DNA of 64,000 nucleotides from Nitrososphaerota archaeon (lineage in GTDB: Archaea; Thermoproteota; Nitrososphaeria; Nitrososphaerales; Gagatemarchaeaceae). Location: NCBI GenBank assembly GCA_029785825.1, contig JAFLYY010000001.1:124001-188000 (forward strand), given 5' to 3'. The notes below the pieces were generated by a model. That model made no database searches and was not told the origin of the DNA. It saw nothing but the letters and a program-made list of their open reading frames with translations. This document shows positions 33,878-38,336 of the stretch, in pieces (position 1 is the first letter of the stretch; each line of letters begins with the position of its first letter). The position numbers and the translations under genes are program-made.

Positions 33878-33946
33878 GGTGAAAGCCCGGCGATGCGAAA
33901 GTATCACGCCTGGTTTGGGGTCTCCTGATTGAAATCAGCTAAACCG
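33878..33946 (+). ncRNA. Candidate structured RNA with three consecutive hairpins
   Basis: Three stems follow one another: GGG-tgaaag-CCC (33878-33889); GGC-GATGC-GAAA-GTATC-AC-GCC (33890-33911), capped by a GNRA tetraloop; and GGTTT (33913-33917) pairing with AAACC (33942-33946) around an inner hairpin CTGAT-TGAA-ATCAG (33926-33939). It ends about 190 bases before a DUF4382 gene, in a 341-base gap with no other gene. The strand is chosen because the GNRA loop reads GAAA on plus. It matches no riboswitch or small RNA I know well enough to name. Confidence 0.4.
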
Positions 33947-34135
33947 TCATGTCTGATTTATGAGGTGATCGACCTGGTCGGAGGGTTCTGTGTATGGCGG
34001 ATCCCCCCAATCTTGTCGGGGTGCTTTCATGAGCCTCGGGTTCGCTTCCTCCCTGAAGCGGGCCGCCGCGCCCCGGGATGACTCACCAGCGCCTGGTGTC
34101 CTTTCAAAACTGATGGAATATATATCCCGGCAAAG

Positions 34136-34681: not shown

Positions 34682-34782
34682 AAAGAGAGAAACAAAGGCG
34701 CGCGCTCTCTCCAGTGGGCTGAGAAGTCAACTGCCGCAGAGTCTTCCAGAAAGATCACAGCAGCTGGGTCAGAAGACTAACC
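34682..34782 (+). repeat. Decayed, shortened copy of the element's repeat
   Basis: The block begins like the 25-bp direct repeat plus junction (AAAGAGAGAAACAAAGGCGC, then GCGCTCTCTC). It continues with parts of the 174-bp inverted repeat in the same orientation as the left copy (CAACTGCCGCAGAGTCTTCC against CAACTGCTGCAGAATTTTCT) and ends GGGTCAGAAGACTAACC against GGGTCAGGCTACTAACC. About half of the repeat is deleted in between. It marks an older insertion of the same kind of element. Confidence 0.6.
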
Positions 34783-34794
34783 CGACTACGGACA

Positions 34795-34977
34795 CGAGCC
34801 GGACGTTGAACCTCAGTTTCACCTTCCTGGCGAGGGCCGCCTGCTCTCTGGCCATCGCCGGGTCGGTGTGGGAGAGGGCCACGGCCGACTCGATCAGGAA
34901 CCTGATAGATGCTGCAGCGTCATCCTTCGCGCCCCTTCTCTGCCTCGCGGGGGCAACACCGGCCCGTCAGGTCTTAA
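34795..34977 (-). pseudogene. Truncated, inverted copy of the RNase P Rpp21 gene
   Basis: Bases 34795-34905 read on the minus strand match the intact Rpp21 gene at 39135-39245 with only about two differences in 111. Further 5', to about 34977, similarity drops and is seen mainly in the translation (RRGAKDDAAASIRFLIESAV against RKGAKEEAAEVVRFLTESAV) and in the GGTTAAGACC promoter element. The match stops abruptly at 34795, so both zinc-binding Cys pairs are missing and the product would be non-functional. The GTG start is replaced by GCG. Confidence 0.65.
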
Positions 34978-35110
34978 CCGTAGTCACTGGAGTTGGGTTG
35001 TTCGGAGAACGGGACAGAAGAGGCCCCCGCGGATGGACCCACGGCCGTTCAGCTCTCCACGGAAGAGAACGGCAGTTCACTTTATTAGGTCCCGCGGGTT
35101 CGAACGGGGC

Positions 35111-35260
35111 ATGTCGTTCCTGAAGAAGATGAAGGACAAGACTGAGGAAGCCGCGAAGAAGGGCGTCGAGGTAGGGAAGGAAGCGGGAGAGAAGGGCGTA
35201 GACGTAGGGAAGAAGGGTGTCAAGAAGACCGACGAAGCCGTCAGAGGAAAGGACGACTAG
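35111..35260 (+). CDS. Small Lys-rich helical protein
   Basis: From ATG 35111 a 49-residue protein is built of 11-residue-like repeats (KGVEVGKEAGEKGVDVGKKG), a pattern typical of amphipathic, partly disordered LEA-like or apolipoprotein-like small proteins. It sits in the segment between the two repeat copies of the tRNA-Gly locus. Coding status is moderately supported by the regular repeat. Confidence 0.5.
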   Translation: MSFLKKMKDKTEEAAKKGVEVGKEAGEKGVDVGKKGVKKTDEAVRGKDD

Positions 35261-35564
35261 ACAGGCCGCCGCTCGGGCCACGAAAGCCGACCCCTAAGAA
35301 ACGCCTAATCGTGCTCGGCTGACACAGCATCTGCATTGCTCGACCTCATCTTCTCCGAGTCTGCGCTCGAGCTGACTCCCAGGGAGGTGGCCCGAGAGGG
35401 CGCGCGCATGTGTGCATATCAGCATGTGTCTGAGAGAGGACGACTGCGTGGGCCCCCCACAGGCGCTTCAGCGCCCGCTCGCATGTTTCTGATCGCTCGC
35501 TAGTACTTGCGTCTGTGCTTGCTCGCCTGCCTGTCCGCCTTCCCTCTTATCCCGTAAGTGGAGG
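35261..35564. other. Gene-less spacer left of the inverted-repeat element
   Basis: No gene is seen. The sequence contains many alternating GT/CA-like words (GCATGTGTGCATAT, GCTCGCTCGC) and runs into the purine tract of the direct repeat. Confidence 0.35.
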
Positions 35565-35589
35565 AAGAGAGAGAGGAAACAAAGGTGCG
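35565..35589 (+). repeat. 25-bp direct repeat, left copy
   Basis: Identical to 38223-38247: a GA-rich tract followed by GGAAACAAAGGTGCG. The copy at the tRNA side includes the tRNA-Gly 3' terminal bases, so this left copy is the expected other end of an insertion. Confidence 0.65.
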
Positions 35590-35597
35590 CGCTCTCT

Positions 35598-35771
35598 CTC
35601 TCTCTCTTTGTAGGCTGAACGCGTCAGGGGCGTTGCTGTGTGTTTGTGTGCCTGTGGTGAGAGGTCCAGCCAACTGCTGCAGAATTTTCTGAAAAATTTC
35701 AGCACATGTGTCAGGACTGACTGCTGCAAAAAATTACCTGAAAGAAATAACAGGCAGTTGGGTCAGGCTAC
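35598..35771 (+). repeat. 174-bp terminal inverted repeat, left
   Basis: It is the exact reverse complement of 38060-38233, with no mismatch found by eye. It begins in a CT microsatellite tract and ends GGGTCAGGCTAC. Internal palindromic words such as CTGAAAAATTTCAG and CTGCTGCAAA occur. Perfect identity implies recent insertion or continuing copy correction. Confidence 0.85.
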
Positions 35772-35775
35772 TAAC

Positions 35776-36147
35776 CTATGCCCCGGAGAGCAACTGTTTG
35801 ACTCGTCCTCGGATGTTATCTGACACACTTGAGAGCTTCTTCTTCGCTCCTCCCGTCAATAGAGCGGTATGCATTAAGGCGTCGCGTATTGGTTTGTATT
35901 CTGCCGCGTCTCTGGAAAGCGCAGCTTCTTTCGTTGGACTCCGGGTCTTGTCAACCAGATTCGCCAGGCCATCCATTGAGAGGTAGCTCGTGTCGTCCGG
36001 CTTTGTTCTGATTTGGATACTGATATTGCCTTTCTCCATGTTCGCTTTCTCTTTCCCTCTCATTTCCTCGATGTCTCGAACGGCTTCCTTGCTGCTAAGA
36101 CCTTTGTCAGAGATGTGTTTTCTTATCAAGTCCGAAGGCATGGTCAA
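35776..36147 (-). CDS. Hypothetical protein of the inverted-repeat element
   Basis: The 123-residue protein ends just inside the left inverted repeat. A helical, basic N-terminal half (SDLIRKHISDKGLSSKEAVR) is followed by NISIQIRTKPDDTSYLSMDG and a helical tail (EYKPIRDALMHTALLTGGAK). It is probably soluble. It is divergent from the 564-residue gene, with small palindromes (GGTTAG-A-CTAACC at 36202-36214) in the shared spacer. I recognise no family. Confidence 0.55.
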   Translation of the reverse strand: MTMPSDLIRKHISDKGLSSKEAVRDIEEMRGKEKANMEKGNISIQIRTKPDDTSYLSMDGLANLVDKTRSPTKEAALSRDAAEYKPIRDALMHTALLTGGAKKKLSSVSDNIRGRVKQLLSGA

Positions 36148-36296
36148 AGGAAAGAGGGTCGGAAGGCAGAACCAGTGGATGTTGACTGACGAAGGAAGAC
36201 GGGTTAGACTAACCAGCTAGTCTTGGTATTCGCGAATTGTTGCCGACGCAATGAATTACTTAAAGAAGCGAAGTTGATTGCCGCGTCCGCCATAGG

Positions 36297-37991
36297 ATGA
36301 AGAAGAAGCAGATTGGGTTGCTAGTAACGGAGATCGGCTTACCCATAGGTATGGGGACCTTAATCTGGGCAGTCTTCAACGAACCTGTTATCGCTGTTAC
36401 TTTCGGCTTCCTGTTATCCATACTGTCACTCCAAGTGAACTCTGTTTTCAATGAAGAGCGGAGTAACATTACTTTTGCGACACCATCGCTCAGGAATGTT
36501 AACGACCATGTGACCAGATTACTGAAGGATTCCTCGGGTAACAAACTCTTCAGCGAAGTAATGGGTGCCAAGCTGAGCAAGTTGGACTCTGAAATAGGTT
36601 CGTCGTCCATCGAGTTTGCCCAAGCAGACATAGAGCCGAAGGCAAAGCTAATGATTGAGCGGTGCGAAAAGGGGGGAAGAGCTACTTCTCTTGTGAATCT
36701 TGGAGAATACTGGACAACAGTGGGAGATTACTTCGAGCTATGTAGAAAGGCTACAAAAGAGGGCAAGAAAATCACAAGAATGTTCATACTTCAAAAATCT
36801 GTTCTTGCGGAACAAACGCAAAAGAAAACTAGAGAAGCCCTTCTAAAGCAGATTAGTGAAGACAGCCAAGCTGGCATCGAAGTCTATGTTATAGATTCAG
36901 ACATGGTAGGGGACGCGGAAGCAATCCAAGATTTCGGGATTTGGGACGAAAAAGTACTCTGCCATGTTCAGCCAACGGGCCGAAGAAGCAAGGAGGTCAA
37001 AGCGACATACTCCGCAATTCAAGAAGACTTGGACAAAGCTAACAGATGGTGGGAAGTCTTGGTCAGAGCCAGAGTTGCCCCAATGCAAGCGTTAGATTCA
37101 TTCGTTGATTCCAACTTGAAAGGTTCGGGCTCTTTCTTATCGAAGGACGCAGCCATTGAACTTCGAGATACGGCGAAGAAAACGGAAGAACTATCGAAGG
37201 GTTGCCGAAGCACTTTCCTGAGTGGCGGGAAAAGCGAGAGTTGCTCATGGTATCACGGTGCCTGGCAATACCTAAGACTCTTGGACATGGTATCGACACC
37301 AGACTGGCACGCCGAGTTCTATCACAATGCATTAACAACTGTCATGCAAACGAAGCCAGGTGCAAGTATACTGATTTCTGGACTTGCAGATTATGCTATG
37401 CTTGGACACGTTAGACAGGCGGTGCGATATGTGAATGCCAACCCGAGCATAGTGGTCACAGACATCTGTTCTACCCCGCTACGAATGTCCGAATGGTACG
37501 CAAACAAGTACGGCTTCACCATTCAGACAGTGGAAGGTCACATAGTCAATACACCTGCACTCAAGAACTCCTCATTCGATGTAATTGTTACAGACGCGTT
37601 TGTGACGCGGTTCCGGCAAGACGAAACTGAAGATGTAATCAAACGCTGGAAGAACCTACTCGTTCACCATGGCAAGGTAATCACTACAATAAGGATATCA
37701 GATGAGAGCCGTTCGTTTACTGCAACACAAGAACAACAGTCCGAATTCGTCGACAGAGCCTGGTCCAGAGCGGTGGACCGCGGTGGGTTGGTTCTCGAGG
37801 CAATTGGCTATGAAAGGCTCAAAGAAATTGCCAGAAGCTACGCGGCGAGAATAGGGAGTTATCCGTTCAAATCGGATGAGGCTCGGAGTCTCTTCCTGAA
37901 AGAGGGATTTACGCTAAAGTTTGACGAGAGAACGACCCCAGGCGAGTTTGAACCAACAAAATACCTAGAGATTATTGCAGAGAAGTCCTGA
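36297..37991 (+). CDS. Membrane-anchored protein with C-terminal methyltransferase-like fold
   Basis: The 564-residue protein begins with two adjoining membrane helices (LLVTEIGLPIGMGTLIWAV and VIAVTFGFLLSILSL). A middle alpha/beta domain follows (residues about 130-235, KKITRMFILQKSV then AGIEVYVIDSDMV). The C-terminal third (about 355-480) resembles a class I SAM methyltransferase: GASILISGLADYAMLGHV for the SAM loop, IVVTDICSTPLRMSEWYA for strand two and SFDVIVTDAFVTRF for motif IV. It is the main cargo of the element. ATG 36297 lies 40 bases after a TATA-like ACTTAAAGAAG. The substrate is unknown. Confidence 0.6.
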   Translation: MKKKQIGLLVTEIGLPIGMGTLIWAVFNEPVIAVTFGFLLSILSLQVNSVFNEERSNITFATPSLRNVNDHVTRLLKDSSGNKLFSEVMGAKLSKLDSEIGSSSIEFAQADIEPKAKLMIERCEKGGRATSLVNLGEYWTTVGDYFELCRKATKEGKKITRMFILQKSVLAEQTQKKTREALLKQISEDSQAGIEVYVIDSDMVGDAEAIQDFGIWDEKVLCHVQPTGRRSKEVKATYSAIQEDLDKANRWWEVLVRARVAPMQALDSFVDSNLKGSGSFLSKDAAIELRDTAKKTEELSKGCRSTFLSGGKSESCSWYHGAWQYLRLLDMVSTPDWHAEFYHNALTTVMQTKPGASILISGLADYAMLGHVRQAVRYVNANPSIVVTDICSTPLRMSEWYANKYGFTIQTVEGHIVNTPALKNSSFDVIVTDAFVTRFRQDETEDVIKRWKNLLVHHGKVITTIRISDESRSFTATQEQQSEFVDRAWSRAVDRGGLVLEAIGYERLKEIARSYAARIGSYPFKSDEARSLFLKEGFTLKFDERTTPGEFEPTKYLEIIAEKS

Positions 37992-38059
37992 TTTTGTAAC
38001 GAAGAGGACTTCATTGCCTCCGCAGGCTCGAATCTTCGCTCCATAGACACATTCCCCTT

Positions 38060-38233
38060 GTAGCCTGACCCAACTGCCTGTTATTTCTTTCAGGTAATTT
38101 TTTGCAGCAGTCAGTCCTGACACATGTGCTGAAATTTTTCAGAAAATTCTGCAGCAGTTGGCTGGACCTCTCACCACAGGCACACAAACACACAGCAACG
38201 CCCCTGACGCGTTCAGCCTACAAAGAGAGAGAG
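38060..38233 (-). repeat. 174-bp terminal inverted repeat, right
   Basis: Exact reverse complement of 35598-35771. It ends in a GA tract that merges with the 25-bp direct repeat and lies 10 bases from the tRNA-Gly 3' end. Confidence 0.85.
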
Positions 38234-38247
38234 GAAACAAAGGTGCG
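38223..38247 (+). repeat. 25-bp direct repeat, right copy, overlapping tRNA-Gly
   Basis: Its last four bases (38244-38247) are the 3' end of the tRNA-Gly gene and its first eleven lie within the right inverted repeat. It is identical to 35565-35589. A weaker relative begins at 34682. Confidence 0.65.
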
Positions 38248-38336
38248 GTCGCCGGGATTTGAACCCGGGTTACCAGCTTGGAGGGCTGATGTCCTGGACC
38301 AGACTGTCCCCTCGGAGAGGACTGGACGACGACCGC
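38244..38336 (-). tRNA. tRNA-Gly(TCC) with an 18-base insertion in the D loop
   Basis: The acceptor stem (GCGGTCG/CGACCGC, A), T arm (CCGGG-TTCAAAT-CCCGG) and anticodon arm (TCAGC-CCTCCAA-GCTGG, anticodon TCC) are clear. The gene is 93 bases. Removing 18 (CCTCTCCGAGGGGACAGT or a shifted equivalent) leaves a standard 75-base tRNA with D arm GTCC-AGTCTGGTCCA-GGAC. The inserted bases form a GTCC...GGAC hairpin, as expected for a bulge-helix-bulge intron at a non-canonical position. Exact splice points are ambiguous by up to five bases because CAGTC is repeated. Base 33 is C, not the usual U. Confidence 0.85.

Follow-up and report, generated by a model that had tools for sequence, protein, structure and literature searches.

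Casposons are the group of transposons whose integrase gave rise to CRISPR, and the polarised, repeated insertion of DNA at one site is a feature thought to precede CRISPR arrays. The terminal inverted repeats of casposons range from 25 to 602 nt in length (PMC4046053). In family 2 casposons, the target-site duplication (TSD) starts with 5'-CGCA, the 4 bp with which the tRNA gene ends (PMC6977970), and the casposase of A. boonei targets the motif TCAAATC, 8 bp upstream of the TSD, requiring only about 5 terminal nt of the repeat itself (PMC6614799). Mobilisation in trans has been achieved in M. mazei with a mini-casposon devoid of cas1, including tandem insertion at the TSD (PMC10359463). The element described here, E1, lies in a 64-kb window (the whole stretch of DNA analysed, 64,000 nt) of a Nitrososphaerota archaeon from soil. 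With a probability of roughly 0.87, it is interpreted as derived from a casposon, non-autonomous and carrying cargo, and as having inserted beside a decayed element of greater age, E2 (Table 1).

E1 resembles the family 2 casposons of Methanosarcina mazei, Aciduliprofundum boonei and Ca. Nitrosotalea okcheonensis in its location at a tRNA 3' end, its 14-bp TSD starting with CGCA and the TCAAATC motif, as well as in having terminal inverted repeats, some with internal palindromes, and in tandem insertion; autonomous elements related to E1 furthermore encode, as family 2 casposons do, a Cas1 with a C-terminal helix-turn-helix (HTH). In contrast to family 2 casposons, E1 is without cas1, polB and HNH, the Nitrososphaerales casposons examined have no PolB in their ORFs, and the end sequences differ, some Nitrososphaerales elements even having two unrelated ends. 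The M. mazei mini-casposon likewise carries Cas1-less cargo between casposon ends and inserts in tandem at the TSD, the helper being a chromosomal Cas1; it is, however, a laboratory construct, whereas E1 is natural and has its own gene aboard. Solo casposon terminal repeats, reportedly found in M. mazei by Krupovic in 2016, are said to be similarly casposon-derived, Cas1-less and located at casposon target sites, whereas E1 has kept its two ends, TSDs that match each other and a cargo gene that is intact.

Table 1. Features of the E1-E2 locus (window positions) and of related loci in the same and other genomes.
Feature	Position	Strand	Description
E1, non-autonomous casposon (main reading)	35590..38233	(-)	~2.64 kb
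E1 terminal inverted repeat, tRNA-proximal	38060..38233	(-)	CT-rich terminus, GTAGGC, two copies of hairpin motif AACTGCTGCA
E1 terminal inverted repeat, distal	35598..35771	(+)	actual element end at 35590
Cargo ORF, 564 aa	36297..37991	(+)	weak C-terminal class I methyltransferase match
Small ORF, 123 aa	35776..36147	(-)	no match found
52-bp stretch in E1	36145..36196	(+)	79% identical to DNA beside the cas1 fragment of a decayed casposon in the same genome (C1:1694 kb)
tRNA-Gly(UCC), target gene	38244..38336	(-)	ends in CGCA, the 4 bp with which the TSD begins
TCAAATC leader motif	38256..38262	(-)	8 bp upstream of TSD; motif of the A. boonei casposase
TSD copy 1, CGCACCTTTGTTTC	38234..38247	(-)	tRNA-proximal
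TSD copy 2, CGCACCTTTGTTTC	35576..35589	(-)	between E1 and E2
TSD copy 3, CGCGCCTTTGTTTC	34689..34702	(-)	one mismatch; distal to E2
E2, decayed tandem neighbour of E1, the older of the two	34703..35575	(-)	
tRNA-Leu casposon, same genome	C1:532353-542365 (L112 5354-15366)		132-bp inverted repeats, exact 14-bp TSD CGCACTCGCTTCTT
G009 element next to tRNA-Gly	L057 556-5503		5.8 kb; N6/N4 DNA methyltransferase, AIPR/AbiU protein, RelA/SpoT-domain protein
Stand-alone tRNA-Gly 3' fragments	L059 ~285 (G022), L077 ~4435 (G005), L079 ~6475 (G064), L080 ~2321 (G023)		

The G+C content of E1 is 47.8%, compared with 58.2% for the whole 64-kb window. An initial sequence-only reading of this DNA had described perfect 174-bp inverted repeats at the 3' end of tRNA-Gly, enclosing an element without recombinase, Cas1 or polymerase, and both descriptions are borne out. 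The two arms, 174 nt each and hence inside the range known for casposons, are 100% complementary and separated by 2288 nt, with inner flanks that differ, and recombinase, Cas1, polymerase (PolB) and HNH are all absent from the ORFs of E1; neither Cas1 nor an integrase was found in E2. The perfect identity of the arms points either to a recent insertion or to gene conversion, which the data do not separate, and the 174-bp repeat has no copy elsewhere in the 1.97-Mb genome (an 8-contig assembly). The 174-bp unit was also considered as a structured non-coding RNA and rejected, its folding being no better than that of shuffles (z 0.35 and 0.09) and a match in Rfam being absent. Searches of 397 further genomes of the phylum, of viral contigs and of the PDB gave no homologue for the 564-aa cargo protein, and its AlphaFold model, at a mean pLDDT of 37, is unusable.

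The target gene, tRNA-Gly(UCC), is called by ARAGORN at 38242-38307, its 5' end being extended to 38336 on the basis of the acceptor pairing GCGGTCG/CGACCGC and the alleles of relatives. The gene contains a short D-arm intron, variable in length and sequence among relatives, and is misread by ARAGORN. Beyond it, outside E1, follow nep1 and then rpr2, and the pairing of nep1 with tRNA-Gly is conserved within the genus.

A direct repeat of 25 nt, 100% identical between its copies at 35565-35589 and 38223-38247, marks the two sides of E1. Within it, the 14-mer GAAACAAAGGTGCG (window strand; 35576-35589 and 38234-38247) is the target duplication, whereas the remaining 11 bp, AAGAGAGAGAG, belong on the right to E1's own end and on the left to the end of the older E2; in tRNA orientation, the junction reads ...GGTTCAAATCCCGGCGAC / CGCACCTTTGTTTC / CTCTCTCTCTTTGTAGGC.... 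In the whole window, CGCACCTTTGTTTC is the sole 14-mer starting with CGCA that recurs within 4 kb. Over its proximal 123 bp, E2 shares 78% identity with a locus of another genome, G029, where a fragment of cas1 is present, and this homology ends exactly at ...GGAAGAGAGAG, the predicted E2 terminus, which supports the division of the repeat into a 14-bp TSD and 11 additional bp. The 25-bp repeat is thus best read as a composite of the TSD with 11 bp of E2: the flanking repeat noted in the sequence-only reading does occur twice as an exact 25-nt string, but only 14 bp of it represent duplication. The distal end of E2 (34702-34775) is of another type than its proximal one, namely the hairpin type, and is matched by the covariance model of E1-type ends (C1:158702, equivalent to window position 34702). 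Together with the three copies of the TSD, these end matches indicate two elements in tandem, the oldest TSD copy being slightly decayed.

E2 also contains decayed inverted copies of the 5' part of rpr2 (34795-34934, 91% over 140 nt) and the 5' part of nep1 (35336-35386, 71% over 51 nt), the intact rpr2 and nep1 genes being situated on the opposite side of tRNA-Gly from E2, and it seems that host DNA was captured or received by E2. Elsewhere in the window, a degenerate group II intron domain V is located at 33881-33929 (Rfam RF00029; 32.4 bits, the gathering score being 40), and the adjoining stretch 33914-34006 has one further copy in the genome at C1:1693507-1693600, 74% identical and near the decayed casposon.

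Used as a query against 60 relatives, the 174-bp DNA returns weak matches. The end common to these relatives consists of a CT-rich tract, GTAGGC and a hairpin, AACTGCTGCA...CAGCAGTTA, and such hairpin-type ends immediately follow the 3' end of tRNA-Gly or of a 3' fragment resembling it; a covariance model of E1-type ends, R1, finds matches in 10 of 121 genomes, the genome of E1 counted. Genome G032 harbours a complete element of 1.1 kb with two hairpin-type ends and exact 14-bp TSDs, CGCACCTTCCTCAC, and G022 one of 3.3 kb with an exact 13-bp TSD, CGCAAGTTTCAAC, one of its ends being of the hairpin type and the other strongly resembling the repeat of the tRNA-Leu casposon in E1's own genome (z 15). 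The target rule of E1, a CGCA TSD at the tRNA end, is followed by the G032, G022 and tRNA-Leu elements as well, and the duplication measures 13-14 bp in all resolved cases. For G003, G024, G005, G064 and G009, no right-hand TSD was found, and these are therefore counted as single ends or remnants. Stand-alone tRNA-Gly 3' fragments, comprising the T arm and acceptor end, are the insertion sites in G022, G005, G064 and G023; they may be old integrase att sites, or may be carried by elements.

Several of these relatives, G064 more firmly than G009 and G027, connect E1-type ends with casposase genes. In G009, an element bounded by a 28-bp end pair contains a cas1 fragment beside its distal end, with TSDs that do not match and a distal end unlike that of E1 beyond the CT tract; its methyltransferase, AIPR/AbiU and RelA/SpoT cargo looks like anti-phage genes. 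G064 has part of a cas1 gene 6 kb from an E1-like end (z 6.9), with exclusively element-type genes in between, the end being a single one and the cas1 truncated, and in G027 a cas1 fragment at a contig end lies 11 kb from an E1-type end. Hairpin-type ends also occur in genomes without a detected cas1, such as the complete G005. In 12 tRNA-Gly alleles of other species that do not have such an end, the DNA examined contains the 14-mer once. The already doubled repeat at empty sites, named in the sequence-only reading as a refutation, is not seen among them, although these 12 are too distant to be true empty alleles; no close empty-site allele was found, and in the closest relative, G013, the tRNA-Gly site is absent from the assembly.

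The genome of E1 itself contains one Pfam Cas1 match, inside the 10-kb element at tRNA-Leu. Besides cas1, which has one in-frame TAG, this casposon carries genes for a C5 methyltransferase, a Vsr endonuclease and a ParA-like ATPase, and its target consists of TCGAATC, 8 bp and a 14-bp TSD starting from CGCA at the end of the tRNA gene. No PolB was recognised in the ORFs of the tRNA-Leu casposon or of the G064 element, whose largest ORFs measure 451 and 456 aa. Beside another tRNA, at C1:1694 kb, lies a second element, decayed, in which cas1 survives as a fragment. Enzyme-carrying full copies, anticipated in the sequence-only reading, accordingly exist as a class, represented by the tRNA-Leu casposon and by decayed copies in G064, G009 and G029; no intact helper cas1 is visible in E1's genome, the only full-length copy containing the TAG and the other copy being a fragment. 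The Cas1 of the tRNA-Leu casposon is 78% identical to an intact Cas1 of G012, for which the best match among solved structures is the M. mazei casposase 6opm (333 residues, 57-406, HTH included, 3.8e-37), compared with 1e-15 for the best CRISPR Cas1. By sequence comparison, the G012 protein would thus be nearest to casposase rather than CRISPR Cas1, including in its C-terminal HTH. Both G012 (JOPF187) and G064 (palsa_1368) fall within Nitrososphaerales/Thaumarchaeota. The Cas1 proteins of G010, G030 and L147 were set aside as other kinds, and one scan of viral contigs for Cas1 gave no match.

The 3' ends of tRNA genes are also the classic targets of integrases, and tRNA-Gly 3' fragments are present elsewhere in several genomes, as integrase att sites would leave; E1 might accordingly be an integrative element mobilised by a trans-acting tyrosine recombinase, in which case the direct repeat would represent attL and attR. 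This is improbable given that the terminal inverted repeats are flush with a fixed duplication of 13-14 bp, that just 4-5 bp of the tRNA are within the repeat, that no integrase gene was recognised in E1, the tRNA-Leu casposon or the G009, G022 and G064 elements, and that the E1-type end sequence is linked to cas1. Inverted repeats with a target duplication are, moreover, a generic transposon signature, and they would also be expected if E1 were MITE-like and descended from an ordinary DDE transposon (insertion sequence) whose stagger is unusually long. The constancy of the target, always a tRNA T-arm plus CGCA, and of the duplication, 13-14 bp in each resolved case, makes such an origin even less probable, and no DDE transposase was recognised among the members examined. 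Least probable of all is that the perfect inverted repeat of a partly real element arose as an assembly or recombination artefact (a false inversion or a duplicated end), as identity over 174 bp in a single assembly of 8 contigs might suggest, since the inner flanks differ, the TSDs follow the casposase rule, the independent G032 element has related inverted ends and 14-bp TSDs, and elements of the same build exist in G032, G022 and at tRNA-Leu.

The target motif, the length and CGCA start of the TSD and the linkage of its ends to casposases in relatives group E1 with the casposons, as an element from which Cas1 has been lost. It is a mobile, non-autonomous element targeted to a tRNA 3' end and with relatives elsewhere, as the sequence-only reading had proposed, whereas the same evidence does not support the proposal of an undescribed family set apart from casposons by its lack of Cas1. 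E1 accordingly represents no new class of recombinase. Among the features of casposon membership, E1 has the terminal inverted repeats and a TSD of ~14-15 bp flush with its ends, and it shows the family 2 target, with a TSD starting in the CGCA that forms the last 4 bp of the tRNA and TCAAATC 8 bp upstream; a Cas1-family integrase and a family B DNA polymerase are missing. In the absence of Cas1 from both E1 and E2, E1 is filed as a non-autonomous derivative and not as a casposon sensu stricto.

The integrase that moved E1 most likely belonged to another casposon. What the analysis shows is the build of the elements, the target rule, the TSDs, the order of E1 and E2 and the links, by sequence or position, to casposase-bearing elements; that Cas1, supplied from another element, catalysed the insertion is our inference. 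A family-2-like casposase, consisting of Cas1 with a C-terminal helix-turn-helix, would come in trans from another casposon in the cell and would recognise the T-arm/acceptor end of tRNA-Gly through TCAAATC, the 8-bp spacing and CGCA. It would then join the CT-rich ends of E1 to the target across a 14-bp stagger, repair by the host giving rise to the 14-bp TSD. Each insertion would restore the target on the tRNA side, so that later elements would enter between the tRNA and their predecessors, producing the E1-E2 order. If about 5 terminal nt suffice, this would explain why E1, E2, the G022 element and the tRNA-Leu casposon share little beyond the CT-rich terminus, and likewise how elements could have two different ends. 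Counted against this reading, besides the lack of cas1 in E1, the shortcomings of the G064, G009 and G027 loci and the hairpin-type ends in genomes without a detected cas1, is that the 174-bp repeat of E1 and the 132-bp repeat of the tRNA-Leu casposon are only weakly alike beyond the CT tract (z 3.6). With no intact helper visible in the genome today, E1 may now be stranded.

Apparently new here are natural casposons that are Cas1-less, cargo-carrying and in tandem, casposons in which no polymerase was found, and elements with two differing ends; a literature search, outside of which the 2016 solo-repeat work on M. mazei remained, found no earlier description of natural non-autonomous, cargo-carrying casposons. 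More speculatively, the PolB-less casposons of soil Nitrososphaerales could constitute a general cassette-capture system with a casposase needing little more than a CT-rich terminus, in which unrelated segments with mixed ends, bearing defence cargo as in G009 or host fragments as in E2, would be placed successively behind the same tRNA. Such a system might conceivably be a natural parallel, on a large scale, to the acquisition of CRISPR spacers. If the casposon origin of E1 is true, it would show that casposases also work for elements that do not encode them, in the manner of MITE-like satellites, and that polarised repeated insertion at one site occurs in nature with unrelated inserts. The known range of casposons would also grow by a lineage that yielded no PolB, a point relevant to whether 'self-synthesis' is a required part of the casposon life cycle.
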